A program made the position numbers and the translations under genes. The notes beneath the pieces are model-generated. The model made no database searches and had not been told where the DNA came from. It saw nothing but the letters and a program-made list of their open reading frames with translations. DNA of 64,000 nucleotides from Anadara kagoshimensis (lineage: Eukaryota > Mollusca > Bivalvia > Arcoida > Arcidae), in contig CM037860.1 in assembly GCA_021292105.1 (NCBI GenBank), forward strand, positions 10,868,698 through 10,932,697, given 5' to 3'. Within the stretch, counting starts at the first letter, position 1. The number at the start of each line of letters is the position of its first letter. Shown here in pieces: positions 5,736 through 55,698 of this stretch.

Positions 5736-5739
5736 TATC

Positions 5740-6480
5740 TATCAAAAACAAACATACTTATCCATTTCCGAATCACAATCCAGAAGCAAAGTAAAAACTT
5801 TGGAACTGACAAGTTAGGTTAGACACGTGAACTTCCACCAGGGAAGTGAGGCCGGGTGCTCCGGAAGGGTAAGCACCTCCTGTTTAGCTAGCTACACCCG
5901 TCACGTGTGTAATCAAAATTGTGTGAAAGGAACATGGAACTATGAGACGTCAAATATATCCAAGGCAATCCTGGACACAGAGACATCAAACTTATCAACA
6001 ATACTGTGATGACGGCCATAAAACTTTTTGAGGGCCTTGATAAGCCTAGGCTTGCAATATTCCTGAGTCAACAATTTATTTGCAAGCAGCCTACTTCGTT
6101 GTACAAAGTCCCTGTAGTGGGAACAAGCTCTACCATAGCGTATTAATTGGGAAACAAATACACCATAAGCAGGAGAAGCAGGTATATTGCTGCATAAAAA
6201 AGGAAAGTTGACAATAGAAAAATTGAAGTCATCACGTTTGTCATAAAGTTTCAAATGTAGCCTTTCTTGTGCGTCATAATTCAGGTATAAGTCTAAATAT
6301 GAAGCAGAACTTGAGGAATCAGTCATGTCTTTTATTTCAAGCTCACTAGGATAGATGACATTTACATAGTCTCCAAATTTAAGATTGTTAAGAGACAGAA
6401 CGTCATCTATGTATCTGTATGTTGAGTTGAATTAAGAAACGGATAATGGATAAGTATGTTTGTTTTTGATTACAATTACT
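5740..6480 (-). mobile_element. Penelope-like repeat, best-preserved 3' end (copy P4)
   Basis: The copy carries the terminal block (GAACTTCCACCAGGGAAGTG, then GTGCTCCGGAAGGGTAAGC) at about 5827-5878, followed on the minus strand by the C-terminal RT-protein frame (5940-6326). It is bounded by the same ~24-bp sequence in opposite orientations: ACAAACATACTTATCCAT near 5748 and ATGGATAAGTATGTTTGT near 6449. Inverted copies of one terminus at both ends are unusual for an ordinary LINE. Confidence 0.6.
5940..6326 (-). pseudogene. C-terminal 128 codons of a Penelope-like reverse transcriptase
   Basis: The open frame contains SASYLDLYLNYDAQERLHLK, LYDKRDDFNFSIVNFPFLC, SNIPASPAYGVFVSQLIRY and FYGRHHSIVDKFDVSVSR. 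The order 'YLDL - short strand - LYDKRDDFNF' resembles the post-catalytic part of Penelope-type RTs, where the family shows FLD..v...G.l.T.lY.K..D. The catalytic palm motifs are not in this piece. A repeated RT protein with this ending is, from memory, common in invertebrate and fish genomes. It is partial and probably not translated as a host gene. Clade assignment is inference. Confidence 0.6.
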
Positions 6481-18190: not shown

Positions 18191-18715
18191 AATAGCGTCA
18201 ATGATATGGTAACTGTTAGTTAACGGACCTTAACCATTGTAGAGTAGACTTTAGTTGAAATTAAAATGAGAATAACTGGATAAGAAAACTAGATATTGCT
18301 TCACCATATGGAACCAATGACAAGATTGTAATTTCAAGCCCAGGCTGTAATGTTATATGTAAATGTCATACACTTGTTCAACAAAACTGTATGCGACAAC
18401 ATCGACGTTTCGCAACAAACCGAAGATCCGGGAATTTAGTTTTTCTAATATTTTACCATTACAGAAATCTTTCGGATTATTCTTTATTCTCTGCCACTTT
18501 CCCGTCTTAGGCAGTTACAATTAATGCATTTGTAAAACAACTATAGATTCCAATACACTAGAATACAAACTTGGCGCTATCGTCGTTAACAAATTACATG
18601 TATTTAAACCTGTTCGGGAAAACGATAAAAAAACGATGATCGACGCCAATTGATATCATAAATTACACTATGCTAGCAAGGGCATAGATCTCTATGCTAT
18701 AAATATTTCTACTAT
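18191..18715. other. No gene recognised
   Basis: Spacer between the tandem array and the Penelope-like fragment. No frame of note. Confidence 0.5.
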
Positions 18716-18719
18716 TCTT

Positions 18720-19537
18720 CTAAATAAACAAGTACAGCCTACTAGTATTTAAAGCTCCTGCTTTTATCAAATATAGCTCGCCACCTCCAGTTTCCTACTC
18801 CTACAATAAAGTCATTGCATCCAAAATATTTAATTCAAAACAAACATTGCCGTGTTTGAACTTTCATAATTTTACTACACCTACCTGCTCTTGCTCGTCT
18901 TCTCCCCATGCTATATTTGGTGATCTCAACATTAAAAACAATTAAGATGTCTACTTTCAAAAGGTACTAAATAAGATAGAGCTTGCTAAAGGTTGTACGG
19001 TCTTGCATATTAAAACAAGGATTGACAAACTTAGTGTTATGAGTTCTAAACCCTCTTCTATAATTAGGGACTCGGAGGTCTCGCATATAAACACAAGTAT
19101 GTTGTTGTATCAGCTTTCAACAACATTATTCTCCTTTGTAAGAGATTCTACCTTGAATGTCTTATAAAGGAACTTGGTTAAGATAGTATATCAGATAATC
19201 CTACTATACTAGAGTTTTACCAAAGATGGAGTTCTTTCCAACCATGGTAAAGTATTCGAGTCTTTCGATATCAATCCTAAAGAGGAAGAACTCGACTTTC
19301 CTTGGATTCCTTAACTTCACAAAAATCCATACAAGCAAAGATGTATAACATGTTCCTCTAAATGCACTACTAAATTAATATCAGTAATTCTAATACAAAT
19401 TTTGATAGTCGTCAAAAATTTCTTTAGTCGTATTTAGATAAAGTCAATTCTGGCATCAACCAATCATCTGAAATGTGGATTCTAAACATTTTTTTAAAAA
19501 ATTACTTGAACATCTTGCTTATAATTCTCATATCGTG
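18720..19537 (+). pseudogene. Penelope-like element, upstream half (copy P6, first segment)
   Basis: In the plus frames I read FNFHNFTTPTCSCS-like residues, HGKVFESFDINPKEEELDFP, LHKNPYKQRC and CSSKCTTKLIS, then NSGINQSSEMWILN. These match, from memory, the upstream part of the same RT protein whose C-terminus is at 5940-6326 (family pattern: KNPYKQRF.aGSSKCTTK, then SGvNQMWILKNSK). The reading stops at 19537, where a DNA element begins. The protein resumes at 30925. Decayed, with several disruptions. Confidence 0.6.
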
Positions 19538-21310
19538 TTACCCCAGATTTACCCAAAGTGTACAAGCAATTAAATTGCCAATGAATAGAAATTGACAACA
19601 TAATTGCTTCTTCCTTAGGTAGTGTTGTTATTAGTTAATCCTCTTATTTATGAATTTAATAGACAGATGGATTGTTAGTCATAGAGTCAATTGACCAGTT
19701 GAATTATCAGTTAAATTATAAACTTGTTTGCTAAATTATTTTTGAAACTACATCTCAGATTTGTGATTTTGATTTTCCACTGATGCTGCATACTGGTCTG
19801 CAAATACACATGCACTGAATTAATAAGATGTTTTATTTCACAGAAAAATACTTGCATATATTACACCTTCAATACTAGTTTAGATTTACAAAAGTTTTTC
19901 ATAATGCCGGCTGCTTAAAAATAGCAGTTTTCCAGGGTTGTTTTTTTTTTCAAAACGCTCACAGATATTGAATTGATATTTGGTATGTGAATTGTTCATC
20001 ATGTAGTAATTATGAACTTGCAACTCGACTTGTGCACCCTGGTGTTCATTCATTTTTTATTGTTGAATTATATTTTTATTATTAAAATTTGCAAATTATT
20101 CATGTTAGGCAACTTCCAATTTTTCAGTATCACACTTGTGATAAATAAACATTGTGATGTAATAAGTAAAGAGAACATAAAGCAAACTGAAATTGTTGGT
20201 CAAGATTGATGGGGAAAACAAATGTTAAGAATTCTATTTAGGTGTATAGTACAAAATGTACTTATTAGTTACTTATTATTAGCTATTACAGGTAGTTCTT
20301 TTATTTTTGAAAAATCAGCAAAATCATTTTAAGGAAAGCACTTTTTATAAACATGATAGAGATTTTTCACCGTTTGGATTACACTTTAATGCACAAATAA
20401 TTTCATCACCCCACATATATTTATTCAGGTGGTATTGTCATCAAAAAAATAATGACATTGATTTGTCATTAGTGATTTGCTATACATCTATAGGTATTCA
20501 TAAACTGAACCACTAAATAATGTGACCAAAATGAATTGCAAGTCCCAGACAAGAATGTGTGACTTTTGATTCACAAAATGTAGAATATAAATCATATTCA
20601 ATTATTTATGCATGCTCTGTTAACAGTTTTGTTGTGTTAGCACACATAAATACCACATACTGCCGAACCAGTCTCATTCAGTTTGTTACGGTAACAGCAC
20701 AACCTTCCCCTGCTACTGCTGAGCACATGATTTGAGTTGACCCGAGAGATAAAATACAGCAGGACCCAGTAGTTCAAAGCTTGATTAGTTTAATCATTGA
20801 TTTGGTTGAATCTTTATTCATTTTCAACATTTCAACATTGAGGTCACAATATATCTGCAAATATGATTAAATTAATCAGGCTTCAAACAACTGACCCCAG
20901 ATTAGAAACTCAAAATAAAGTTGTATCTGAAAACAACCAGATCCACCACTTTAAATAAAGTAAAAAATGGTGTCCGACAGCTTATAGTGTGGTTAAAGTA
21001 CTTTCTGTTGTTTTATGATATTTCCATGTTCCTTGCAAATATATAAACATCAAAATTTTTAACCAAATTGTTTAACAGAGTTTTAATAGGCCCCAGGAGT
21101 GGGGATGATTGCAGGACCTGAATATTCAAATGATTCTACTGATCATTCTCAATAAGAAAAACACCAATACACCCCCCCCCATTAATCCAGTGCATACATA
21201 TGTATTTGCAGACCAGTATGCAGAATCAGTGGAAAATCAAAATCACAATCAGAGATGTAGTTTCAAAATTAATTTAGCAAACAAGTTTATAATTTAACTG
21301 ATAAATCAAC
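19538..21310. mobile_element. Non-autonomous DNA element with ~290-bp TIRs (left part)
   Basis: The left arm (about 19538-19828) begins TTACCCCAGATTTACC. Its reverse complement appears in two pieces, 21180-21310 and 30756-30924, because LINE A has inserted into the right arm. The internal ~1.35 kb has no transposase frame. It interrupts the Penelope-like RT between the MWILN block and the FDFST block. Without the LINEs the element is ~1.95 kb. No target duplication is obvious, so the superfamily is unassigned. Confidence 0.75.
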
Positions 21311-22010
21311 CCTATTGTCGATTAAGATGGCGGCAGGTAAAGAACGGAGCTCACACCGTTCTACAAATCAGGCGGAAAATGAAGTGTAAAGCAGCTTTAA
21401 AAAACCACCAAAGTTGGTATATCATGTATATTATGGAAAATAATGGAAAATAGTGTATTTTCTGATGGGACTACGCCTAAACCAGCAAAACGAAAGAAAA
21501 GAAAAAGGAGTAAACAAGATAAACAGGAAAACACAAAGGAGGGTGTTCACCGGGGTGAGCAAAATATAAACATGAACATTAATAACAGTTCCCCGTCACA
21601 ATACACTCAACTTTCAACACCAGTGCAATTATCACAAGACTTTAATTCTCCACAAAGTATGGCTGCAGCACCTATGCAACCAATGCACCATATGCAAAAT
21701 AATCAAAGTTATCAATATATGTCGCCATGCCCTTCAGGTAACCCCAATATTGGACAAGCTACGCCTCAGTGGGTTACGGAGCTGTTTTCACGCATGGAGT
21801 TTATGACTAATAAACTTTCTACACTAGACTCTATTCAGGAAACTTTGACCACTGTTAAATCTCAATTAAATTCTGTTAAGGAAGAAACTGTCCGACTTGA
21901 TAAGCGAATTAATGACATGGAAAACAATATGGAGAAAATGGGTAATTTTTTCGATGACCAGAAACAATCAATTAACGGATTAAACAAAACAATCACTAAC
22001 ATTTCTAAAG
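21311..22010 (+). mobile_element. LINE A, 5' segment
   Basis: LINE A is a non-LTR retrotransposon in two segments, 21311-22010 and 26672-30743. The whole insertion is flanked by a perfect 12-bp target duplication, TGATAAATCAAC (21299-21310 and 30744-30755). This segment holds the 5' leader (ATTAAGATGGCGGC) and the first 188 codons of ORF1. It is broken by LINE B at an AACATTTC target. A is more damaged than B, as its older position predicts. Confidence 0.9.
21443..22009 (+). pseudogene. LINE A ORF1, N-terminal part
   Basis: The frame starts MENSVFSDGTTPKPAKRKKR: a basic, disordered, Gln/Asn/Met-rich N-terminus. A heptad-like coiled-coil stretch follows (LDSIQETLTTVKSQLNSVKE, then FFDDQKQSINGLNKTITNIS). 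This layout matches L1-type ORF1p: disordered N-terminus, coiled coil, then RRM. The frame runs into LINE B and shows an artificial end at 22054. The native continuation (NISKSLNVQSADM) is at 26672. Confidence 0.8.
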
Positions 22011-22081
22011 AAAGATGGCGGTCAGAGGTGGAAGCTTGTTCTCACCGGCTGTGAAAATAAGTAAATAACTGTGTTTTTAAG

Positions 22082-23193
22082 ATGAGTGGAGCATCGAAAA
22101 CTGGTAATCTTGTACCTAATAATCCAGTCGATACAACAGAACAACAACCAAAGAAGAGAAGACGACAAAAAAGTAAGAATAACAAAAATACCTCGGACAA
22201 AGACAATAAGAAAATTCCAACCAGTACCCCATTAAGGGATCACAAAAATATGAACACTGATTCGTTATCTCAAATCTCATTTATGAGTCAATTATCTCAG
22301 GACACCGAAATGTCACAGCATTTAATGAACTCTCCAAATCCTCCAATACAGATGCAGAACATGCAGAATGCTCAACCGAATATGTGCACATACCCTCAAG
22401 GTACCCCAAATATACAATCTATGGCTAGTCACGGACAGTTCACACCACCCTGGGCTATACAGCTGTTCAATCAAGTGGAAAATATAAACAAAAAACTCAC
22501 TACCCTAGACGAAAATACAGTACCGTAAACAATATTAAATGCCAGATAAGTGCTGTTGAGACCGAAACGAAGCGGTTAGACACTAAAATTAAAGAAATTG
22601 AAAAATCCTCTAGTGCAATTAGTGGCTTCTTTGATGATCAGAAAAAATCGGTAGATAATTTAAATAACACAATGAAAGATATCTCCAAACGATTGAATAG
22701 CCAGTCTGCTAGTGTAGATAAAGCGGTAAGTGACATGAAGACTGAAAATGAAAGATTGAAAGAAGGTATATTGGACTTGCAGATGAGGTCCATGAGGGAT
22801 AATTTGCTGTTTTTCAACTTAGATGAAACTCCGATGGAAGACTGCGTTTTGAAAATAAAGGAATTTTGCAATAAAGAACTAGAAATTGATAATGTGGCCG
22901 ATATGAGGATTGATCGAGCTCACAGACTGGGGCCCAAACGGGATAATAAGCCAAGACCGATAGTGGTCAAGTTTAACTTTTATGAAGATAGAGAGAGGGT
23001 ACGGAAAATTGGAAAGGATAAGCTGAAAGGGAAGAAATATAGAATAGCCCAACAAGTTCCGAGAGAAATAAGGGAGAAAAGGAAAGCTCTACAGCCAATC
23101 TATGAAGATCTTATGCAGAAAGGAAAGAAACCGTATTTCAAAGGAGAGAAGTTGTTTGTGAATGGCAAGGAATACACCAACGGACGTAGATAG
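22082..23193 (+). pseudogene. LINE B ORF1 (L1-type RNA-binding protein), one frameshift
   Basis: It begins MSGASKTGNLVPNNP with a basic KKRRRQKSKNNK tract. The coiled-coil region runs through LFNQVENINKKLTTLDEN and, in the +2 frame, KDISKRLNSQSASVDKAVSD. An RRM-like block follows: RSMRDNLLFFNLDE, MRIDRAHRLGPKRDNKPRPI, then VVKFNFYEDRERV. This is the transposase-22/L1 ORF1p signature that binds RNA in the ribonucleoprotein particle. The frame shifts once near 22519 (DENTV to NNIKCQISAVE). It ends at a TAG (23191-23193) with ORF2 continuing in the same frame. Confidence 0.85.
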
Positions 23194-26100
23194 GAAAGCG
23201 GAGAATCGATAAGATGTGTATCGTGGAATATCAACGGACTTCGGAAAAAATGTACAGACAGTGATTTTGTATGCTATGTTAATAATTTTGATTTCCTTTT
23301 CTTAACAGAAACCTGGCTACGGAAAGATGAGACTATAAATATTGAAGGTTTTGAACCAATCTCGTATGTGAATAGAGTAGACAATATAGGTAGAAGAAAT
23401 GAAGGCGGATTGTGTGTGTATTGTAAACCAGCATTACGTAAAGGGGTTTCTGCCGAAAAAGAAATACAAAATGGTTTAGTTGTCGTTAAGTTAGATAATT
23501 TAGTTGATGTGTTTATATGTTTATGTTATATTCCACATATTAAGTCAGGATATTACAGGCGTGTTGATTTTGATTTTTTTTATGAATTAACTGATATTTG
23601 TAGTGAATTTGAATACAAAGGTAATCTTTTTATTACAGGTGATTTCAACGGCAGAGTTAGTAATGAAAATGACTTTATAGACATTAATAATTTAGTTGAG
23701 TATTTAGATGTTGCTCAGGTTGAACAGCAAATTGACATTCCGATAAAAAATTCTATGGACAAAGTATTGAACGCATTTGGCAAGAATATTATCAATATGT
23801 GTAAAACAACTGGTATATCTATTGTAAACGGTCGCTTACATAATGATAAAGTTGGTAAGTTCACATTTTGCAATGAAAATGGAAGCAGTTTAATTGATTA
23901 TCTGCTTACTTTCCCAAAGTGTTTTAACATAATGAATTATTTTGATATCTTAGATTATAATGAATTTTCTGACCACGCACCACTTGCTTTTAATATAGCG
24001 TCGCATATGACAGACTACACAAATGACTTTAAAACCGGTCGGAAGATGCACTGGAATACAGATAAAGATGATACATATAAACAATATATATCAGACGTGA
24101 TACCTGAAATGATAGAATTAGTGAACGGTTTAGGTGATTCTAAAGATTTAAATTCATGTGTCTCTCAAATAACTGAACTAATTTATTCAAAATGTTTTAG
24201 TGTGTATGGCAAAGAATATACGATTCTGACATATAAACTCGACCAGGCATAATGAGTGGTTTGATAAAAAGTGCCGTATCCAAAGAGCGCGCTTTAATGC
24301 TGCACGTAATGAATTTAATAGAAACCCAAGTGATATGAATAGAACAGCATTTGTAACAGAACGGAACTCGTACAATAGAATTAAAAGATCGGCTAAGTTC
24401 AAGTATATGCGAAAGAAAAGTGATGATTTACATAAACTTTCCAAAACTGATCCGCGAAAATTCTGGAGAACCGTAAAACCGAATTCTAAAAAGTCTTGTC
24501 CAGTGGAACTTAATGATTTTTTTAATCACTATAAAAGTGTTTTTGGCGAACAGCAAAGTGATTTAGATAATATTGTTGAAAATTTATTTAATGATTCATC
24601 GAACTTAGTTTGTATAGAGGAATTGGACACACAGTTTACCGAAGATGAAGTTTTGAATTCAATAAAAAGATTGAAACATGGAAAGAGTACCGGTATTGAT
24701 GAACTATCAGCAGAAATGTTTATCACTGTTGCCGAACTTTTATCTCCAGTTCTATGTAAATTATTTAATTATATCTTAACAACTACTGAATTTCCTGAAT
24801 CCTGGACTACTGGAATTGTTGTACCAGTACCCAAAAAAGGATGTTCATCTGATCCCAACGACTACAGACCCATAACGTTAGTCAGTGTTTTCTCTAAAAT
24901 ATTTACAACTATGATCAATGAAAGGTTGTTAAAATGGGCTGAATCATCAAATCTGTTAAATGATAACCAATTTGGATTTCGACCCGGAAAATCTACAGTC
25001 GACGCGATATTTACACTTAATGGAATAATTTCAAATACTCTCAATGAAAAGGACAAACTTTTTTGTGCATTTGTTGATTTCCGCAAAGCCTTCGATCGGA
25101 TAGATAGGCGATTTCTTTGGTATAAACTGATGAAAATGGGCTGTAGCAGTAGCATGTTAAACATGCTAAAATCTATTTATCATAAAGTTAATATTGTTAT
25201 TCGCTCTGGTGGACAGTTTTCAGATTCTTTCCAAAATTTCACTGGTGTTAAACAAGGAGAACCACTTTCACCACTATTGTTTCTCTTTTTTATTAATGAT
25301 ATAGTAGACGATTTACGTTCAGATAACTACAACGACATCATTGACATTAATGGATATTTAATTTATTTGCTTTTATTTGCGGATGATACAGTGCTTTTCG
25401 CTAAGTCTCCAGATGTTTTACAGACACTTTTGAATAAATTACATACTTATTGTCATAAATGGTATATCGAGGTGAATGTGGAAAAAACAAAAACTGTCGT
25501 ATTTCATAGGGGAAGAAGAAAATTTGACTACTCGTGGAAATTTGGAGATTACTGCTTAGAAAATGTCGACTCTTACGTCTATCTCGGAATGACTTTTCAC
25601 AGAAATGGTAAATTTAATATTACACAAAGAAAACTCTCGGAACAGGGATCTCGAGCTCTATATAGTCTTTTAAATATCTACAGGAATTATATGATGTCCG
25701 TGAAACAGAAATGTGAACTATTTGATTCCATGTGTCAGTCCGTCATATGCTACGCCTCTGAAATATGGGGTTTCCATAAAGCGCCCGATATTGATATCAT
25801 ACACAATAAATTTTGTAGACATATTCTTAAAACAAGTAAATCTACTCCGATTGATTCTATGCTTGGAGACCTTGGTAGATACCCTTTATACATTAAACGT
25901 TACGAACGTATTTTAAAATATTGGTTAAAAATTTTAACAAATAACGATACTGTCATATTTAAAGTTTATAACATGTTGTTATATGACGCCAATAATGGCA
26001 AGATAAATTGGGTATCAAATGTTAAAGATCTTGTGTGTAATCTTGGTTTTGGAAATTATTGGTACAGCCAAAACCCTAATGTTATTAATTGTAATTTATT

Positions 26101-26554
26101 AATACAAAGGTTATATGACCAATTTATACAACAATGGTATGAATCCATTCATAGTAAATCTAAATTATCTTTATATAAAAATGTTAAATCTGCTTTTCAG
26201 TTTGAATCTTATTTAGATAGTTTATGTTCTAATTACTTATCACTCATATTTCAGCTTAGATCTGGCTCTTTAAAACTAAATATTGAAATTGGTAGATACA
26301 GAAACATTCCTAGAAATCAAAGACTTTGTACTTGTTGTAATTTACACATGTTAGAAGATGAATATCATTTCCTTTTAGTTTGCCCCGCCTACAGAAATTT
26401 AAGATTAAAATATTTACCACGGTATTATAATCATTGGCCAAATTTATCAAAAATGTATTATCTTATTAGTTCTAATTCAAACACTCTGTTGTTATGTTTA
26501 GCAAAATACTTGTATAATGCAACTAGATTAAGAAAACAGATTTGTAATATGTAG
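23194..26554 (+). pseudogene. LINE B ORF2 (endonuclease-reverse transcriptase), one frameshift
   Basis: It opens in frame with ORF1 right after its stop, with no ATG before the endonuclease motif IRCVSWNINGLRK (23212). APE endonuclease marks are WNING, LTETWL, ITGDFNGRV and a late SDHAPL. A frameshift near 24220 leads into an uninterrupted frame to 26554. That frame has the RT fingers (KSTGIDELSAEMF), PVPKKG, DPNDYRPITLVSVFSKIF, QFGFRPGKST, FVDFRKAFDRIDR, GVKQGEPLSPLLF and the catalytic FADDTVLF. Near the C-terminus is a zinc-knuckle-like CTCCNLHMLEDEYHFLLVCP. No RNase H domain is seen. Confidence 0.9.
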
Positions 26555-26671
26555 TATTTTTATTGTTAATTAGGTTTATAATTTTGTTGTATTCTGCCGC
26601 TATCAATATATGTACTTATGTTGTTGTGCTATAAGCTGTACTGCTTTTTATGCAATAAAGAGTATATATAT

Positions 26672-27193
26672 AACATTTCAAAAAGTTTAAATGTCCAATC
26701 CGCTGATATGGATAAAGCACTTAAGACATTGGCTGATGAAAATGAACAATTAAAACAGAGCGTTACCGATTTACAAATGAGATCCATGAGAGATAACCTC
26801 TTGTTTTTCAATATAGAGGAAAATATCAACGAAAACTGTGTTGATAAGGTGCTCCAATTCTGTGAACATGAGCTTGGTATTGCAGATGCAACACGTAATA
26901 TTAAACTGGACCGTGCGCACCGTCTTGGAAAGAAAAGCGAGACCAAAACTCGACCAATTGTCGCGAAGTTTAATTACTATGGAGATCGCGAAAATGTCTA
27001 CAGTGCTAAAAGCAAGTTAAAGGGGAAAAAGTATGGTATCGCACAACAACTACCGATGGATGTGAGGAATAAACGCAAAGTTTTACAACCCGTTTTTGAC
27101 GAGCTTACAAGTAAAGGCAAAAAACCATACTTCAAAGGAGACAAATTATATCTCAACGGCAAAGAATACAGGGCGCCAATATCACCGAAATAA
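26672..27193 (+). pseudogene. LINE A ORF1, C-terminal RRM part
   Basis: It contains RSMRDNLLFFNIEENINENC, IKLDRAHRLGKKSETKTRPI, VAKFNYYGDRENV and GKKPYFKGDKLYLNGKEY, near-identical in layout to LINE B ORF1. It is the direct continuation of 21443-22009. The stop is TAA at 27191-27193, and ORF2 follows in the same frame without an ATG, as in LINE B. Confidence 0.85.
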
Positions 27194-30100
27194 CATAAAC
27201 GCGGGAAATACATTGACATTTTAACTTGGAACATTAATGGGTTATATAGTAAAATTAATGATGCTGACTTTATCAATTTCGTAAACGGATACGATCTAAT
27301 TCTATTTACGGAAACAAGATTAAACAACAGGGACAATGTAGAATTAAAGGGGTTCGATTTATTAGAACTACTTAACCGTACAGTTAATGTTGGAAGACGC
27401 AGTGAAGGCGGTCTTGGTGTGTTTTGTAAAGGTAACATTAGCAAAGGTATACATATTGAAAAAAAATCACAGAATGGACTCCTTGTCTTAAAATTAGATA
27501 GAATATTTTTTAATTTTGAAAACGATCTATATATTTGTTTGGTATATATACCACATGTGAATTCAGAATATCATAAAACTGTTGATTTTGACTTTTTTCA
27601 AGAATTAGTTGATATTACCGGTGAGTATGAGAGTAAAGGTGATTTCTTTATTACAGGTGATTTTAATAGTAGAATAGGTTTATCTGATGATTATGTTAGT
27701 GACAATAATTTAGATAGGTTTATAGACACGGTTCCTGAACAAGAGGATATACAACTACCAAAAAGACAATCAAGAGACAAAGTTTAATGTGTTTGGTAAA
27801 AAACTACTTGACTTGTGTAAAACTACAGGATTGAAAGTTATAAATGGTCGTATATCTAATGATGTTGTTGGTAAATTTACTTTTTGTAATGAAATAGGTC
27901 GAAGTACTATTGATTATTTTCTGTCTTTTCCTCAGAAATTTAGTTTAGTTAAAAAATTTGATGTATTACAATTTAATGAATTTTCTGACCATGCGCCAGT
28001 TTTATGTTCATTTCAGTTTGATAGTACAGAGCCGGACATTGAATACAAGAGATCACACAGCTACATACAATGGAACAGCTACAAAGAGAACATATATGTA
28101 GACGCTATAAATGAAGTGATGCCAAATTTGATGGAGTTAGTCAACGATCTTGGAACTTCAACGGATGTTGATCAGTGTGTTAATAAGATAAGTGAAATAA
28201 TCTATACTAAAGCATATAGAGTGTTTGGTAAAGAGTCAAAGGGGTATAACACATCAAATAATGTTAAACAGAACGAATGGTTTGATTCGAAGTGTCATAT
28301 ATATAGAAAATGTTTTAATTCTTGTAGAAATGACTTTTATAGAGATGGAAGTGATGGTAATAAACTCCGTTTATTTACAGGCGCGTAATGCATATAATAA
28401 GGTAAAACGATCGGCGAAAATGAACTTCAACGTAAAAAAGGTGAAGAGTTACGAACTCTTGCTAAGACAGACCCAAAAAAGTTTTGGAAATCAATTAAAC
28501 CGAAATCTAGAAACGAATGTCCGGTGCCTTTGGGTGATTTTTTCACGAATTTTAAAAACGTATTTGGAGAGGATCTTCCAGACCTTAGTGACGATATTCA
28601 GAATTTATTAAATGAAACTATTTGTGTTAAAGATATTGAGGAACTTGATAAACCTTTCAGTGTAGAAGAAGTCATTAACATCATTAAGAAATTAAAACGC
28701 AACAAAAGTTCTGGGATAGATAATATACTTAGTGAAATGTTTTTACCTATTAATAAACTTATTGCACCAGTAGTTTGTGTGTTATTTAACTATATGTTTA
28801 CTAAGTGTGAATTTCCACAGTTATGGACCAATGGAATTGTGGTTCCTGTTCCTAAAAAGGGGGATAAAAGTGACCCGAACAATTACAGACCAATAACCTT
28901 GGTCAGTGTATTTTCTAAAATTTTTACATCCCTAATTAACGATCGTCTGCTTACATGGGCAGAAAAGTGTAATGTGTTGAGTGATTCTCAGTTTGGTTTT
29001 AGACCAGGACGATCAACTATTGATGCTATATTTATTTTACACGGGATCATCACGCATACTTTACAGAATAAAGAAAAACTATATTGTTCTTTTATAGACT
29101 TTAGAAAGGCCTTTGATAAAGTAGATAGGCGGTTTTTATGGTACAAACTAGCAAAAACTGGATGTAGTGGTCGCATGTTAGATATGATAAAACAGATTTA
29201 TAAACAATTAATATTTGTATTCGCTCAAATGGAATTTACTCAGAAACATTTGAAAATTATTGTGGTGTCAAACAAGGTGAACCGCTGTCGCCTCTTATGT
29301 TTTTGATATTTCTTAATGACATAGCTGATGATTTGTGTACGGATTCTAGTAGCAGCGTGGACGTCAATGGTTTGCTTCTATATATAATCTTATTCGCTGA
29401 TGATACCGTCTTATTTTCCAAACACCACAAGGTTTACAGGAACTTTTGAATAAACTTTATACATACTGCAAGAAATGGTGTATAGACGTTAATATCGACA
29501 AAAGTAAAGTGGTTATATTCCAAACGGTTACAAAAATGTTAATTTAATTGGGTTTACGGACAACAAAAATTGGAAATCTGTGACAAATATGTTTATCTGG
29601 TGTATTGTTACATAAAAACGGGAATTCAACCATACCCAGAAACGACTATCAGAACAAGGTTCAAATTCGTTGTATAATCTCATGAGGATCTCCAAAGACG
29701 TGCACCTCTCTGTAAAGGACACCTGTGATCTCTTTGATTCAATGTGCGGGTCTGTACTATCATATGCCTCTGAAATATGGGGATTTGATAAAGGTAAAGA
29801 TATAGAGCTTATCCATAATAAATATTGTAGATATATTTTAAATGTTAACAGGTCTACTCCAGTTGAGGCCATGCTTGGGGAACTTGGTCGTATGCCATTA
29901 CACATTAAACGTAAAGAACGCATACTCAAGTACTGGTTGAAAATTTTGCAAAATCATAATAATATTTTATTTAATATATATTTAATGTTGCTTTCAGACG
30001 CTAACAATGGCAAGACTAATTGGGTGTCAAATATAAGAAGTCTTATATTTGATCTAGGTTTCCCTAATTTATGGTATAACCAGTTTTATATTTCTATTGA

Positions 30101-30571
30101 CTATAAAATGTTAAGACAACGGTTACATGACCAATATCTACAGCAGTGGTATAATTCCATTAATACTATAATATCTAAGCTTACATTTTATAAAATCTAC
30201 AAAAGAGACCTGCAGTTTGAATCTTACTTAGATTGTTTAAACAAGCATTTTTCAAACTTATTGTCGAAATTAAGATGTGGTAGTCTCAAGTTATGTGTAG
30301 AGACTGGTAGATACTCTAATACACCTCGTCATTTAAGAATCTGTCAGTGTTGTGAATGCGTGTAGTAGAGGACGAATACCACTTTGTTCTGGTATGTCCA
30401 GCATATAGGCAAATAAGGTTAAAATTTTTACCATCTTATTATAATCACTGGCCAAATATTCACAAATTCTGTAATATTATTAGCAGTCAGTCTAAAACTT
30501 TATTATTAAAACTTGCTAAATATTTATATAATGCTTGGATTGCAAGAAGTCATATTCTTGATATCAGCTAA
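27194..30571 (+). pseudogene. LINE A ORF2 (endonuclease-reverse transcriptase), multiply frameshifted
   Basis: The endonuclease begins with YIDILTWNINGLYSKINDAD, in frame with ORF1, and stays open to 27787. It then shifts several times (breaks near 27785, 28380, 29210, 29430-29640 and 30350). Recognisable pieces are ITGDFNSRI, SDHAPVL, PVPKKGDKSDPNNYRPITL, QFGFRPGRST, FIDFRKAFDKVDR, FADDTVLF, and a final EDEYHFVLVCPAYRQIRLKF. The order equals LINE B ORF2. It cannot make a functional enzyme. Confidence 0.85.
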
Positions 30572-30755
30572 TACTTTTATTATGATTTATTATTCTTAAT
30601 TTCATTATTATTATTATTATTATTATGTTCAATATAGATACTGTATTTCCTGCCAGCCATCAAGTATTATTATATAATATTGCTATGTGGCTACAAGCCT
30701 GTATAAATGCTTAATGCCAATAAAGATTATATATATTAAAAATTGATAAATCAAC

Positions 30756-30924
30756 TGGTCAATTGACTCTCTGACTAACAATTCATCTGTCCATTAAATT
30801 CATAAATAAGAGGATTAACTTATAACAACACTACCTAAGGAAGAAGCAATTATGTTGTCAATTTCTATTCATTGGCAATTCAACTGTTTGTATCTTAAGT
30901 AACTTTTGGTAAATCTGGGGTAAA
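30756..30924. mobile_element. Long-TIR DNA element, outer part of right arm
   Basis: The sequence CTGGTCAATTGACTC through GGTAAATCTGGGGTAA is the reverse complement of about 19538-19716. It was separated from the inner part of the arm (21180-21310) by LINE A. The element ends at GGGGTAA (30924), and the Penelope-like frame resumes at once. Confidence 0.75.
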
Positions 30925-31505
30925 GCCTTTGATTTTTCTACAATTTAAACCACTATCCCTCATTCTAATATCACTTGTCATTCTTTTACCAAAAGGGCAA
31001 GCCAAGACACAAATATCAAGTTCTGAACAGGGTTTCTGATTATTTTGTCAATATCATACGGATTCCAAATAAAAAAGGCTACATTTGATGCTGTATCTCT
31101 GCATGTCAAAACGTGATGACTTCCAATTTTACATTTGTTTCACAATAAATACGCTATGGTAGAGCTTGTTCGCACAACGGAAACTTATTATATACAAGGA
31201 AGCAAGCAGCGTGCAAAAAAATAGTTGAACCAAGAGGCTTATCATGACACTCAAAAAGTTTAATAGTGGTGTCTTAATATTGTGACAAGCATGACGTCAT
31301 CATGTCCATGATTACCTTGTATTTCACTATCAATTTTGATTACACGCGTGCTATGTGCAACTAGCTAACAGGAAGTCGTTACCCTTCCGGAGCACACGGC
31401 CTCACTTCCCTTGGGGAAGTTCGCTTCTTTAACTTAATTTGTCAGTTTCAAAGTTTTTAACTTTGCTTTGGGATTGTGATTTGAACATGGATTGGTATGT
31501 CAAAA
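30925..31505 (+). pseudogene. Penelope-like element, downstream half (copy P6, second segment)
   Basis: It opens AFDFSTI and then TTIPHSNITCH, the RT motif expected after the upstream half ending at 19537 (family pattern: KTFDFSTLYTTIPH). Later the plus strand gives TRYGRAC-like residues (tacgctatggtagagcttgttc near 31150), the RY.RAC block of the family. The family terminal block then appears: CCTTCCGGAGCACACGGCC near 31384 and ATTGTGATTTGAACATGGAT. An internal deletion lies between. This fixes the element as one plus-sense copy split by the nested insertions. Confidence 0.65.
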
Positions 31506-32369: not shown

Positions 32370-32570
32370 TAGTACACCCCAAAGAATCTATCAATTTTGG
32401 CTACATGTGACAGGTGTAGCTAGCTAAACACAGGGTCCTTCTGGAGCACCAAGCCTCACTTCGGAAGTTCCCTGGTGGAAGTTTAAATGTTTAACCTAAT
32501 GTGCCAAAGTTTTTACTTTGCTCAAATATTGTGATTCAGACATGGATAAGTATGTCCGTTTTTGATTATA
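32370..32570 (+). mobile_element. Penelope-like repeat, terminal block only (copy P7)
   Basis: The terminal block is present in plus-sense orientation: GTGTAGCTAGCTAAAC, TCTGGAGCACCAAGCCTCAC, GTTCCCTGGTGGAAGTTTAA and ATGGATAAGTATGTCCGT. It starts only ~90 bp downstream of RPS20. Confidence 0.5.
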
Positions 32571-47000: not shown

Positions 47001-48159
47001 GTGGTGACACTTCAACCGAACCAAACTCATCTTGAAAAAGCTTGAAAATTAATGTTTAAAGATATTCCATGTCATATTCCTTCAAATTGAATATTGTTTC
47101 CACATCCCCAAGTTAAAATCGCCGATAACGGACATGTACATATGCATGCTGATCAATGCTAGTATCACCGATGTAAACAAAATATTTAAAAAAACACTTT
47201 GGCAATTGTTTTCATATTATATTTTTAATCATGATTCATTCCATTGTGAAAAAACGAACTTTAAAAAAATTAAATAACACAGCACAAATAATTGATGTGA
47301 GACGTTCTGACCCCTGAAACCAGCTGATGGGAGTAAAAGTAGTTCACGGTCGGCGTTGCTATGGTTGCGTTATTTTATTGGAGTATAACATGAAAAACGA
47401 GCGCGTACACTTGCACTGTGTTTGTATCACAGCCTGATGTAACAGAATTTAGAAATTAAATTATTCGTTGTTAATTTTTTCATTAAAATTGTTATTTTAT
47501 GTTCATTGATAAAGAAAACATAAACCTTATTTTACAAATATACGGTTTTCGGGTTTCTTTTTATTGTAATTTTTTTTCATCTACAAAATTTTGAAAAAAT
47601 AAGTCTGAATAAAATGAGGCTGCGCCTCAGGAAATAAGAAATTCAGAAAGGTTGTAAAATTCCATATCACCTGCCTAAAAACCAGATAACTAATAATATT
47701 CCCACGGAATCGTACAAATAAGCCAACTTCAAAGTAAACATTACTACGTCATAGATATGACGTCAATGTTTCGTCATTATTCCTAAATGGCGAAGTACGC
47801 CACTAAAAATAATTAGTCGAATCCTAATTATAACTATATATGAAATTTAATTTCTTTAATTTCATTAAACGAAAATATAATAAATTATTCTGCACTGTCC
47901 TGAACAATTCTAGTCGAAAAATGTTAAACGTCCGAAAAACTAAAGTTTATAGTCTTGAATTTAAGAAGTCCTATATAAATCAGGAAATACTGATATCAAG
48001 AAACAGTCCTTGCCAGATCAGTCCGCCCTACCACCATCTGACCTTCTATTTCTTTCTTCCTACAATAAATAAAAGGGAAGAAATGTGGTTAAAAGAAATG
48101 CATACAATGTATACAAAATTTACACATTATAACATACAATGTATATACAATGTTTTTTG

Positions 48160-48209
<50 letters not shown>

Positions 48210-51200
48210 TGATTTATTTATTTATTTATTTATTTATTTATTTTTTTAATTTATTATTGTTATTAAGTTACACGTGATCATCTACAGATTCAACCAAATA
48301 ACGTGTAATACAGTATTGTCTTGTTCTGGGAGGGAAACTAGGGTGTGATTATATCTTATTCCGGTTTGCTCATGAAATCTTAATTTCATTGCGTGCATTA
48401 ACATGCACTGATGAAATTTCTAATTTCATTTCGCAAACCTTCATAAGATATAATCATGTATGTTCAAAGTTAAAAGACAATACTTTATTTTGAAATTGGT
48501 TCTCATGATGAGACTGCTGAGTATTTCTTAAATAGTGTCTTTTGAAAGTGGTATCACTGGACCAGTTTCCCATTTGCAAAATCTCGATACAAGATAAACC
48601 TTTAGCTCTAGCCTTTGATGTGGACGCCCCGCGAGTAGAATGAGCCTTAAACTCACTAGTATCTATACCTGCCGCTTCTAAAAGCTTGACTAACCATCCT
48701 GCGATAGAGCACGGTACCACAGGCTTATGTGGCTCCACATAGCTTAATAGCAACTGGTTACGGGGTGAATCCATGCGGCACCTCCATTGTCTTGTTCTCT
48801 CTAAATATTATTTTAAACAGAGAACTACACAAAGGCGTTGGTCATTATCTTATTCTTGAAAAGTCAGAACTAAAGGAGATTGACCAACTTTACGTGACTT
48901 TGTAAGTCTGCTCAAGGTAAATGAAACATCATTATCATTGAGAACCATGTATCTTATATCAAGGGCACATAACTCTGATGACCTTCCAGCCAATGTCAAA
49001 GCTAAAAGCATTGACAGTTTAAAAGATAACATTTTATCTGAAAGGCTCTCGTTAGATCCCATCGAAATTATATAATTCAAAACTGTATCAACCTCCCACA
49101 TAGTTTTATACCTCGGAGCTGGAGGATTAGCATTGAAACACGCTCTCAGAGTGCCCCTAACCATAGGATGTTGACCAGCTTTGTAACCATCTATGATTTC
49201 ATGATACGCCGAAATTGACGATCGACGAGAATTAATGGTCCGGTAACTGTCACCTTTATAATGACAGCTAGATAGATAATTGACAATTTCTACCACAGGG
49301 GCTTGAAATGGATTAATTTGTCGTGGAACACACCAACCACGCCACTGTTTCCAACAGCTGTTGTAAGATTTGTTTGTTCCTTGCCGCTTTGTGTGAACTG
49401 ATAATAATTCGGCAGCTTGTTCAGAAACACCTCTCTCAATATTGCGTTTCCGGAGATTTTCCAAGCCGCTAGCCGAAAGCTCGCCTGGTTCATGAGAGGA
49501 TGGGTCCCTCTCGACTGGGATGTTATCAGATCCTTGAAAGGGGGTAGCAGAATCGGTAAATCTACCAGGAGACTCATTAATTGTGGAAACCAAGGTTGTG
49601 TCTGCCAAGGTGGTGCAATTAAGACCACTGTAGCCCTTTCCTCTATTACCTTCTGTAGACACCTCGGTATCATACAAAAGGGAGGGAAGAGATAAAGACC
49701 TGTCCCCTTCCAAGACATTTGAAAAGCATCTACTGCTTGAGCGTAAGGATCTGGGTGCCAGCTCACATAATCCGGGAGTTGTGCATTGTGACGACTGGCA
49801 AACAAATCCAACTCGAACGGGCCCCATGTCAGATTTATCGACTCGAACACGGACCTCTTCAGCTGCCAATCGCTGTTGTCCGTGTAATTTCTGGACTGCC
49901 AGTCGGCATCTGCGTTCAAAAGACCCGGGACATATTCTGCGGTCAAATTATTTCTCTCTCGAGGCAGAATTCCATTAATGTTTTGGTCAAAATCACCAGT
50001 TGACGGGATTCGTACCCCCCATTTTTTGGATATGCGCTAAAGCCGTCTTGTTGTCCACACGTAGATGGACGTGGCATTTCATGCGAGTCTTTGCGAGACT
50101 CCTCACAGCAAACAGAGCTGCTTTTAATTCCAACACATTTATATGCTCTAATTTCTCTGCCTCTGTCCAGAGACCTTGGATTTTCACATTGCCCCATGCC
50201 GCACCCCAACCCGATTTTGAGGCATCGGTGTGAATTATCATATCTGGATTGGAAATTATCATGGATTTCCCATTCCAGTCCTTCATTTGGAAAATCCACC
50301 ACCGAAGTTCGGTCACACAGTCCGCTGTCAGACATATCTTTGTCTGATAAGACTTGTATTCCAGCAGGCCCTTTATTTGAGACATCTGCAGGTGTCGGTA
50401 ATGGAGTGGGACAGGTGCTATTGCTTGCATGAAGAAGTCATGTGACCTAGAATTTCCGCTAACTCGCGGACACTGGCCGATTTCTTCATTGTCAATGGTT
50501 TGCATTTGTGTATAATTACAAACTTCACGTTGTTACACAATTTAGAGCATTTTCATTGGTTGTCGTCTTGCAAAAACACGGTGTTATTTTCCAATAACAA
50601 CGTTTTCTACCGGAACTACTTTGGGCCTGTTTCGGGGATTACCCATCTCTGAACAGCCATTTTAAGATTGTAAACAAACGGGGAGGTCGGGAACGATTTC
50701 ACATAGAAACATTAAAATACTTTGATCTTTTTACAAATTCAAATTTTAAAAAATTAATTCAAAGATGTTCTGATTAATTTTCACCGATATTTTTAATAAT
50801 TTACATTTAAGATTGTACATTTATAAAAATTTATGTTTTTCAAAATCGACATTTTTTCGTCACCGAGCATTTTACGTGTCTATGGACTACAAAGTATAAG
50901 CAATATGACACGCACCATGGTATTCTCGGATGCCAAACCTCAGTGCGGGGTGTTTTGTTTGAAATTCATCACATGCGCATCCTTTTGAAAGCAAAGACAT
51001 TTTATTTCCCCCAGACAATGTATAGCCGGGGATCAGGATAAATATTTTGAAGAATGCAATGCCAGTGTGCAAATAAGATGGTTGATTATGAACTGGATCT
51101 TGATGATAATGACAGAGATAGGCCTGCCAATAATAATTTAATAAAATTGATAACATACTATATTCCAGTCTAATGTTCACCCGTACCGCTTGTTTACCTT

Positions 51201-54200
51201 CTCAAAATGTCCCGGATCAGCTCATACAGCTACCACCGGTGACAGAATCCCTCATCTCACATCCATTCCATAGGTGGTAAAACATTGATTCATCCAAGAA
51301 AACATTAATTCCATGTCAATAGTTGGTTTCAGGGTTTGTTTAACACACCGTTCATTCAACCAATGCAGTTTTTCTTATGTAATGGGTAAAATCAAAATGT
51401 AAACACGCCTGTCCTACAAACGTTTGGCCGTCACGTATGACGTTGTTCAAAGTGTTGTTTGTTTTCATGATTGCGAGACATAATATAATCCCTTTTTGTC
51501 AATGAATTTAAATGTAACATAATTTATATGTTGACTGAAAATAACTAAAGAATGAATAAAAAGATATAAATTCAATACTATTTCAGCTTTTTTATCGGAT
51601 ATTTTATCGTTTCATAAAGATGTCATTTATTGTATCACTACGCAGTTCAGCCTTGTAACGTCGATTTTCTGAAAATCAGCTGCTCAGTTCGGAAATGTAG
51701 GTCAGCTTTAAAACTTAAATTTCGGGTTGGTTTGTAATTATAAGAATTGAATTGCACTTTTTACGTTGTTATCGGGGTGTAACAACGTGAAAATTATCAC
51801 AAATTGTGTAAAACCGCTGCGCTACGCTACGCGGTTTTACGCATAATTTGTGATAATTTTCACGTTGTTACACCCCGATAACAACGTAAAAAGTGCAATT
51901 CAATTCTTAAATAATGTTCGTTATCTTGTGTCCCGGCAGTGATATTGTCATCTTGACTGAATCTATGACATAGCCTAGAAATTCTAGATTTTGAGTTGGT
52001 ACGCAAACTGACTTTTTCCAATTGATAAGAAAACCTAGGTTTTCCAATAGCCATCTGAGATGCTAGATCCTTGGTCAGTTCCGATTTTGACTGATTCAGA
52101 AGTAACATGTCGTCTAGATAAATGATCATTCTCACGCCTAGACGTCGGAGAAACGCCACCACGGGCTTCATTAATTTGGTGAAATAAAGTGGAGATGGGG
52201 CTAACCCAAAAGCCATTGTCTGGAATTCCAGTAGTCTCCCTTTCCATAGGAACCTCAGAAACTTTCTGTGTTCCCTGTGGATAGGAACTGCGAGATACGC
52301 ATCTTTCAAATCCACCTTCACCATGAAGTCGCCCGCTTGAACAAGCGATTTCAGGGACACAATGCCCTCCATTTTGAAATGTTGATAATTTATGAAAGTA
52401 TTTAGTTTTTTCAAATTTATTACAGGTCTCTGACCCCCATCTTTCTTTGGCACAAGAAAGATTGGGCTCAGAAATTGACCGGTACATGGAGTTACCTCCC
52501 TTACCACACATTTCTGTAATAATGATTCTATTTCTGAATCTATCATGAGTGCAGCATTTCCACTTAGGGTTTGTGCTGTAGCAAAGTTCTGAAATGGAAC
52601 TTTTTGAAATGGAATCTTCATTCCCATTACTATTTGCAAAATAAATTTGTCCTCGGTCAGAATTGTCCAGTTTTGATAAAAATGTTGAATTCGACCGCCT
52701 AGAGGAAACGTTGTGCCTGGAGATTTTAGACCGAGGTCTACCAGACCTTTGTGAATCAGACATACGTCTAGAAAAGGTGGTATTTCTGTGTCTAATGTAC
52801 ACATTTTTGTGTTCAGTGGAAATGCTGCACCCTGTGACAGATTTTTCTCTAAATCTAAGTTTAGGTTTTCTGACACAGAATGATATGAGCTTACCGCCTG
52901 TTCTCTTCTGTGGTCCAGAACTGGTTCTGGGTCCTCTAGAGAATGTAACCTTCCGGTCCGCCCCTCCAGCTCTTCGAGTTGCGGACCCCTTGAGAAAGGG
53001 AGTGGTGGAACTGCCTTTGAAGGTCTTAGATTTCCAAGTTTTTCTCTCTTTCTTAGGACCAAGCTCATCGGCTATCTTTTTGGACGATTTCTTTATATTA
53101 GCCGCCTTATACAGTACCCTGTAAAAGCTATTTCCAAAAAGATCAGTATCTAAAATAGACAATTTACTCTCATTTGACTTAATGAGAAATCTGGATTTTT
53201 TAATATCTTTTGTAAGATTGTATAAAATGTTCATACGTCTGTGAAAGTTTGTTGTAGTGAATGTTTGTCCCAATAAAGTTGTGGACTTTTCAATTAAATT
53301 TAAGCATTCAAACAAATCCAGGTGGTCATCTGTGACCCGGCCTGATCTTATAGAGTCCAGGTCCATCCACAATTTGCTCAAAGGACCCATAACAGATGCT
53401 ATTCTGCTCTGTATTTGGGCCAAATTATCATCATATGGCTTACCATAAGACCGCTTTGCAGCCTCGAATATATCGGGCACATATCCGTCTACACTGGGCG
53501 ACAGTAAATTTACATTTTCCGGAACTGGGAAAAAATCCAAGATCTTTTCCTTTAGTACTTTATCCGGGATAAACTTTGTGAACTTACGATTGATATACTC
53601 TTTCATGTCATCTGGTAAAACCACTCTGACAAGAGTCAGTTTCTTCAATATCAAACCTTGAGTAGCCAGATTCGTTTGACGAGTTCACACCGGGTCCGGT
53701 AGCATTATTGTCCGGAATAGAGTTAGGTGGTTTATCTGCCAGAACACTGGCAGTGACTTCAACAGAGCTACTTGATTCGCTCTCTCCATCAGAATCAGTG
53801 TCCTGATCTGAATCACTTTCAGAATCCGAAGATGAATTTTCTCTGAATTTCTGTCTCTTACTCTTAGATGGTGATGCATTCCCATCATCAGTTTTGCGTT
53901 TACCACCGTTAGGGGTACTTGTGTCCCCTAAATTTACCTCCTCAGCTACAGCAGGAGGGTTATCTCCGCTACCCTGCCTGACATAAACGTCGGAGGGTTT
54001 TGCGGTTGCCATCATGTCCAAATATAAAAAATATAGCAGAAATATAAAATATTTCTGCACGATATAAAACTAAAATCAAACGTGGATTGATAATAAAATC
54101 ACTCAAACACGTTGGATAAAGATAGGCTTACGACGACAACACGTCTGAATAGTACAAAGCCATGAGGAATAATGACGAAACATTGACGTCATATCTATGA

Positions 54201-55698
54201 CGTAGTAATGTTTACTTTGAAGTTGGCTTATTTGAACGATTCCGTGGGAATATACATGATAATATCTTATGGAGGTTTGCGAAATGAAATCGGGGATATT
54301 GTGTGAAAATTCAGGACATAATTTTCACCACTTTACGAGAAGCAAAAATTTTAATTAGCGTGTATCAGCATTAATCGTTCATAACGCCATGTTAAAATGA
54401 ATAAAAATGAAACTTCATCAATTAATAATAAAACTTAAAAGTTAAAACTATTCTAGTGTAGATTACAGTTCAATCTGAATGCAAATTTTATATAGCGACC
54501 ACCCGTGTCTACAACATGCAGTCACTTTTAAATGCCATCCTCGGGAACACAAAAATTATTGAATAAGTGTAAAAACAGTTTCAATCCACAAATAGTTTCA
54601 ATCCACGTGTGTCATGATAAACTTGCACAGAAAAATGGAAAGTCCGAGATTGTGGTATCCTTACCTTAAAAATCCCGGTGGTCACTTGATAATAATAATT
54701 AATCCATGAATTAGAAGCTGATGTTAATAAAATCCTCACTCTGAATAAATAACACTTTTACACACTATGTCAACTATAAATAGAACAGTGTCTGGTGATT
54801 TTTTTCACCTTTCAGTGGGGCACACAGCGGGAGTAAATTACCTGGACATTTAAAATCGGTAAAATAAAATTATCCAACCACCTAATAATATTTAAATTCA
54901 AAGTAATTTTATTGCAGCAGAGGATAATGTTGGACATTTCAGTTATCCAAATAATAATAAATTTATTATCAATTAATCATATTAAGAAATATTGCCCCCT
55001 TTTGTACACCATTCTTGTCAACAAACTGTTACCTGGACAACTTCTGTTATTGGGAGATGCAAATTGTTAGCTTAGGGGCGATAAGATGTGTCAGAATGGT
55101 TTATAGCAATTCAGGCTTTTGAAGCTCACTTGGTCAATTTATATGAATTCCACAATAATTTTAACTACATTTAAATTAACACTAAAACAAAGATTTAATT
55201 TTTTAATTTTGTTTTATTTTTTTCTCTTCAAATTAATTGTGAATATAGTGAATTAAATTAATGACTTAAACATTGGAAAGGAAAACAAGTTTATGTGTCA
55301 AATGCAAATAAAGGGAAGTAGCTGGTCATGATGAAGGTTTTTTATATGATGATGACATTGTTGATGATGTTGTGGCATGATGATCTGATGAAAATACTGA
55401 TAATAGTGGTGACATTCAGTTCTGCTGATGATGATGACGATGATAATGCTGATGATGTCACCATGATGTCAGATGATGATAAGACATTAGGAGCTATGAT
55501 GATGATGTTGATGATGATGGTGGTTGTGACACTAGTTCCGTTGATGCCGATAATGATGATTGTGAAGATGATGACAATGGTGGAGGTGATAACATTAAGT
55601 TCTGCTGCTGCCAATATGATGATGATGACGATGTGACATAAGCTATGATGATGCTGATTATGATGATGATTATGGTGACATAAGTTCTGTTCCTGCCC

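Follow-up and report, generated by a model that had tools for sequence, protein, structure and literature searches.

The locus described here raises the question of how four mobile elements came to lie one within another, and whether the order in which they interrupt each other is also the order in which they arrived. The window, a stretch of 64,000 nucleotides of the bivalve Anadara kagoshimensis (assembly GCA_021292105.1, contig CM037860.1; C4:10868698-10932697 in the compared genome of 1.115 Gb in 36 contigs), holds a Penelope-like retroelement split by an inverted-repeat DNA element, which is split by a long interspersed nuclear element (LINE A), itself split by a second one, LINE B. Such a four-level nest had been proposed from the letters of the window only, and uninterrupted genomic relatives support all three of its joins. 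In silico excision layer by layer, the check suggested together with that original prediction, recovered a continuous lower layer at every step. The nest is genuine, well-formed and clean, although the element kinds are known and the arrangement is ordinary, and we are highly confident that it arose when three elements inserted one after another into an old copy of the Penelope-like element.

A DNA Element within an Old Penelope-like Copy

The outermost layer spans about 18663-31500. Its left part (18663..19540, + strand) carries a CxC-like stretch and the reverse transcriptase (RT) region to just before the residues AFDFST, and ends with one copy of a TA target (19539-19540), while the internally deleted right part (30921..31500, + strand) starts with the other copy (30921-30922). 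On its motifs we take this layer to be Penelope-like and, on sequence likeness, perhaps of the Naiad group. That group is defined by a CxC motif before the RT, and at this position TCSCSSS is found in the window (frame 0) as well as in L075, one of the relatives of the layer. The search with the left part gave 2,237 first-look candidates; among the 40 that were scored, the best ones reached 77% over ~540 nt, and L075 is matched by 18663-18973 and 18987-19528 of the window. For the right part there were 6,570 first-look candidates, 40 of which were scored, and it matches L070, L071 and L075 with jumps. Once joined, the two parts align to each of these three loci in one piece (75.4%, 75.7% and 75.1%, respectively, gaps counted), with 592 of 700 ungapped columns identical in the case of L071, so that ~15% of ungapped sites differ. 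Frameshifts, and the absence of stretches that L070 has, the RT core among them, mark the window copy as old and damaged. The RT frame had been read as breaking after MWILN and resuming at AFDFST. Both stretches are present, with codons from 19473 and from 30925, but they stand in different frames even after excision of the intervening 11,382 bp, a multiple of three, owing to small indels immediately to the left of the insertion.

Two further fragments of this kind occur in the window. One (5737-6432, - strand) is a 3′ fragment with 99.0% identity to L070 over 697 nt, which suggests recent activity of the L070 subfamily, and the other, at 32392-32567 just right of the nest, is a 3′ end fragment 75% identical to L070.

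The interrupting DNA element is represented by a left part (19541..21298, + strand), including the left inverted repeat (19541-19824) and the start of the right one at 21181, and by a right part (30744..30920, + strand) with the rest of the right inverted repeat and one copy of the LINE A target duplication. The aligned parts of the two repeats measure 284 and 295 bp. The intervening DNA was predicted to be bounded by an inverted terminal motif, and TTACCCCAGATTTACC indeed stands at 19538 (+) and at 30908-30923 (-), with no other match in the window at up to one mismatch and 0.00 in shuffles. The element proper, though, is CCCC...GGGG, and the flanking TA is a target duplication. An inverted repeat starting at TTA was therefore rejected, given the other copies of the element and the empty site at L024. 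For the element there were 1,048 first-look candidates, 40 of which were scored; 31 loci were examined, and 12 full-length rows represented 11 distinct places. The context TTA-CCCC...GGGG-TAA was found at ten of the 11, the alignment of the eleventh (L026) stopping two bases short on the left. At L024 two 66-bp units stand in tandem and the element lies in one of them; its flanks, joined with one TA, equal the neighbouring unit at 66/66 positions. These contexts and the empty site together identify TTAA as the target and TA as the duplication; in the window, the result is ...GTGTTAAAGCC.... The element thus combines terminal inverted repeats with a TA duplication, the latter established via the other copies. 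No transposase was seen in the window copy, the longest open stretch being 77 amino acids, and no autonomous partner turned up, although no systematic search was made.

LINE A within the DNA Element

According to the original prediction, LINE A splits the right inverted repeat with a perfect 12-bp duplication, and this is what is observed. TGATAAATCAAC stands at 21299..21310 and at 30744..30755 (both + strand), identical at 12/12 positions, with the insertion 177 bp from the end of the repeat. With LINE A taken out, the element measures 1,935 bp and gives a single unbroken alignment with the uninterrupted copy at C4:16752541 (L066; 1,977 columns, 96.5% with gaps), where the 12-bp target is present once at the corresponding place. 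Without gaps, identity to this copy is 99.06% over 1,924 sites, and the other ten aligned copies reach 93.0-95.5%. L066, the closest of the aligned relatives, is located on the same chromosome, ~5.9 Mb from the window. Between the left target copy and LINE A there are 9-12 extra nucleotides (21311..21322, + strand) that belong neither to the duplication nor to other LINE A copies; in other 5′-complete copies the match starts with query base 10 (C17) or 13 (C3, C8).

The order of four insertions at this locus had been called unambiguous. The order of the layers is indeed clear, but the order of arrival is not strictly proven by it, as a LINE nested in a cut-and-paste element may in principle travel along with it, and a LINE nested in another could be carried by the RNA of the latter. 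One such alternative is that the DNA element had acquired LINE A, and perhaps LINE B too, at another place before it entered the Penelope-like copy as an 11-kb composite, in which case arrival order and layer order would differ. The intact ends of the element would allow this, and its closest aligned relative is indeed on the same chromosome, though it is free of LINE A. We nevertheless consider such a composite move very unlikely. The 5′ part of LINE A matches eight places besides the window, and in the two that were read (L072 and L073) the flanks are without element sequence, apart from one 19-nt match at chance level. In addition, a non-autonomous element of 1.9 kb would be an unusual carrier for a load of 11 kb.

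LINE B within LINE A

LINE B (22010..26671, + strand) is a full-length element of 4,662 bp, with a frameshift-broken open reading frame 1 (ORF1), an endonuclease (Exo_endo_phos, 3.5e-08) and a reverse transcriptase (RVT_1, 2.2e-39). On its left lies the 5′ part of LINE A (21323..22009, + strand), recognised by its match to other LINE A copies and comprising the element start and the start of ORF1. The 3′ part (26672..30743, + strand) holds the rest of ORF1, the endonuclease, the reverse transcriptase (RVT_1, E 4.7e-19 on 28401-29306) and an AT-rich tail. As predicted, ORF1 of LINE A is split with a 12-bp duplication carrying one mismatch, AACATTTCTAAA at 21998..22009 against AACATTTCAAAA at 26672..26683 (both + strand; 11/12). 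After removal of LINE B, the remaining 4,759 bp of LINE A align in one piece to copies on C17 (99.2%, 4,759 columns) and C3 (98.8%, 4,763 columns); with LINE B left in, the match breaks at 22009 and picks up at 26671. Both copies have the target once, in the sequence of the right-hand duplicate of the window, so that the left duplicate is probably the one that changed. The two LINEs have endonuclease and RT domains and a target duplication, and no long terminal repeat, in accordance with their assignment. They are related but separate families, with DNA identity of ~65% over the best-aligning 3.2 kb and 64% over a further 555 nt, and 49% between the ORF1 proteins.

Another possible route to the same structure is that LINE A and LINE B arrived jointly, as one long RNA transcribed from a LINE A already holding LINE B. 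It would suit the mismatch in the LINE B duplication next to the perfect LINE A duplication, as well as the more numerous private substitutions of LINE B (see below). However, both LINE A copies read are uninterrupted. Three other full-length copies of LINE B are present in the genome (98.7-98.9%), flanked by neither LINE A nor element sequence; across all flanks tested there were only chance-level matches of 17-29 nt. Moreover, as the five private substitutions of LINE A limit the age of both events, the excess in LINE B must largely predate its insertion anyway. We consider joint arrival very unlikely as well. Wrongly joined repeat pieces are the least credible explanation of all: LINE A in the window does have 13 private indel events against five private substitutions, with nine of the 13 within 28254-29622, resembling a patch of low consensus quality, but base-precise joins with 12/12 and 11/12 target duplications are unexpected from misjoins, and the window is without N.

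No second composite was present among the copies read, and the simple stepwise order accordingly remains much the likeliest; the order of arrival at the locus is thus very likely the order of the layers. We infer both the enzymology and the occurrence of each insertion at this place and in this order as follows. A Penelope-like copy would have decayed first. A non-autonomous 1.9-kb inverted-repeat DNA element would then have entered a TTAA site in its RT region, presumably by cut-and-paste with a transposase supplied from elsewhere, duplicating TA. Subsequently, a full-length LINE A would have entered the right inverted repeat of this element, presumably by target-primed reverse transcription, as judged from what is known of the family, with 12 bp duplicated and 9-12 extra 5′ nucleotides left behind. 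Finally, the related full-length LINE B would have entered ORF1 of LINE A in the same orientation, again with 12 bp duplicated.

Private Divergence and Age of the Layers

Private substitutions were counted for the three upper layers. The DNA element has 10 in the window copy over 1,924 sites (0.52%) in comparison with its nearest copy, which has six, while two could be assigned to neither. LINE A has five over 4,724 ungapped columns (0.11%), and LINE B 19 over 4,623 (0.41%). A very close sampled sibling of LINE A, on C17, has three. Since changes may predate the jump, an insertion can be younger than its private divergence suggests but not older, and the 0.11% of LINE A sets this limit for LINE A and LINE B alike. 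With about 0.1-0.5% private substitutions, each of the three upper layers is young.

Three points weigh against successive insertions in the order of the layers. First, 19 private substitutions in LINE B versus five in LINE A are the reverse of the naive expectation, and the difference is significant (two-sided binomial p 0.004, with round lengths of 4,740 and 4,680). The deficit in LINE A is likely due to its close sampled sibling, with the changes in LINE B largely accumulated in its source lineage before the jump. Second, the join in the Penelope-like layer scored better against L070, L071 and L075 with both TA kept (121, 131 and 120) than with the TA collapsed (116, 123 and 112); with only the right-hand TA kept the scores were 114, 124 and 113, and with neither TTA nor TAA 102, 112 and 101. 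The TA duplication rests on the other copies of the element, because the Penelope-like copy of the window has further small indels beside the join. Third, the basis is a single assembly.

The original prediction had also proposed that divergence ages contradicting the nesting order would overturn it. This reasoning proved invalid, given that the divergences of LINE A and LINE B do contradict the order, yet the physical nesting is clear. Divergence from relatives was for that reason rejected as a measure of insertion age, since at this locus LINE A cannot be younger than the LINE B that interrupts it. The locus illustrates a pitfall in this respect, since divergence from family members would misorder the two LINEs. 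It also represents a clean teaching case, because every join can be checked within the same genome, against uninterrupted copies for the DNA element and LINE A and against continuous relatives for the Penelope-like layer. Being young, the three upper layers may be polymorphic in the population.

In the stretch 28254-29622, private 1-bp indels of LINE A are clustered and substitutions are few (gap-base test 9/16, p 0.03). This suggests consensus errors, so that the frame breaks seen in LINE A may not be genuine.

A YY1-like Motif at the 5′ Ends of the LINEs

When the 9-12 extra nucleotides of LINE A are set aside, both LINEs have AAGATGGCGG within 3 nt of their start, at 21324..21333 in LINE A and at 22012..22021 in LINE B (both + strand). 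These are the two matches in the window, against 0.01 expected. A search with ORF1 of LINE B gave 111 matches, and upstream stretches were taken for 20 of them, chosen for near-full ORF1 matches. All seven copies with at least 47% ORF1 identity (L076-L082) have AAGATGGCG followed by A or G, 108-232 nt upstream of the start of the ORF1 match. Three of these (L078, L080 and L081) are alike from 2 nt before the motif onwards, including the bases that follow it, and therefore represent one family. Among the 13 copies with at most 39% identity, two have the AACATGGCG form (L086 and L092) and one has other AANATGGC matches only (L088); AANATGGC is absent from the sense strand in the remaining ten, whose stretches may not reach the true 5′ end. 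Across the 20 stretches, AAGATGGCGG occurs five times in sense and never in antisense orientation, and not once in 200 Markov shuffles.

In human L1, a YY1 site at nt 9-20 controls the position of transcription start (PMC11602158). By analogy, the motif described here could be bound by YY1, and we tentatively propose, at somewhat less than even chances, that the clade of LINE A and LINE B uses a YY1-type promoter at its first bases that sets transcription start and the 5′ end. If true, this would indicate a shared ancient or a convergent design of LINE promoters. Judged by titles, a YY1 start in mollusc LINEs is not described in the literature searched, and these LINE starts are the part of the locus most worth following.

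Other Features of the Window

Outside the nest, a DIRS-like retrotransposon is located at 47659-54290 (- strand), with RVT_1, a Dam-type methyltransferase and 126-nt inverted repeats at 85%. A tyrosine recombinase is suspected at 48850-49947, a region without a Pfam match.

Comparison with Known Systems

The outermost layer resembles Penelope-like elements in belonging to an RT family with thousands of first-look candidates, in the CxC-like stretch before the RT, and in a further 3′ end of this family lying upstream of L070, as in partial tandem copies. A possible difference concerns the endonuclease, as no GIY-YIG domain was recognised by eye in the translations of the three copies read (L070 with L074, L071 and L075), including N-terminally in the upstream sequence of L074 and L075, or by profile in the ORF of L070. 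This ORF (559 amino acids) matches RVT_1 weakly (E 6.9e-05, below the cut-off of the profile) and no solved structure at E up to 1, and Rfam gave no match (E up to 0.1) for the four Penelope loci (11,054 bases).

With inverted repeats of nearly 300 bp and a TA duplication, the second layer is similar to TA-duplicating inverted-repeat DNA transposons, yet its target is TTAA at the ten places that could be read to the first base. Its likeness to Tc1/mariner is limited to the duplication.

LINE A and LINE B, tentatively placed with the L1-like LINEs, share with these the order of ORF1 followed by endonuclease and reverse transcriptase, and the best solved relative of the LINE B reverse transcriptase is the LINE-1 ORF2 protein (8sxt, E 3.8e-33). 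They differ in having an AT-rich tail instead of poly(A), in the window and in most copies read, and no Pfam profile matches their ORF1 pieces above the cut-off. The YY1-like motif at the 5′ end is a likeness to human L1 in particular (PMC11602158).

Finally, a single locus is treated here, unlike in the nested-transposon chronologies built by interruption analysis, REANNOTATE and TinT (PMC2517846, PMC2672092, PMC3014933). Common to those approaches and to the present case is the principle that the order of the layers is derived from which element interrupts which.

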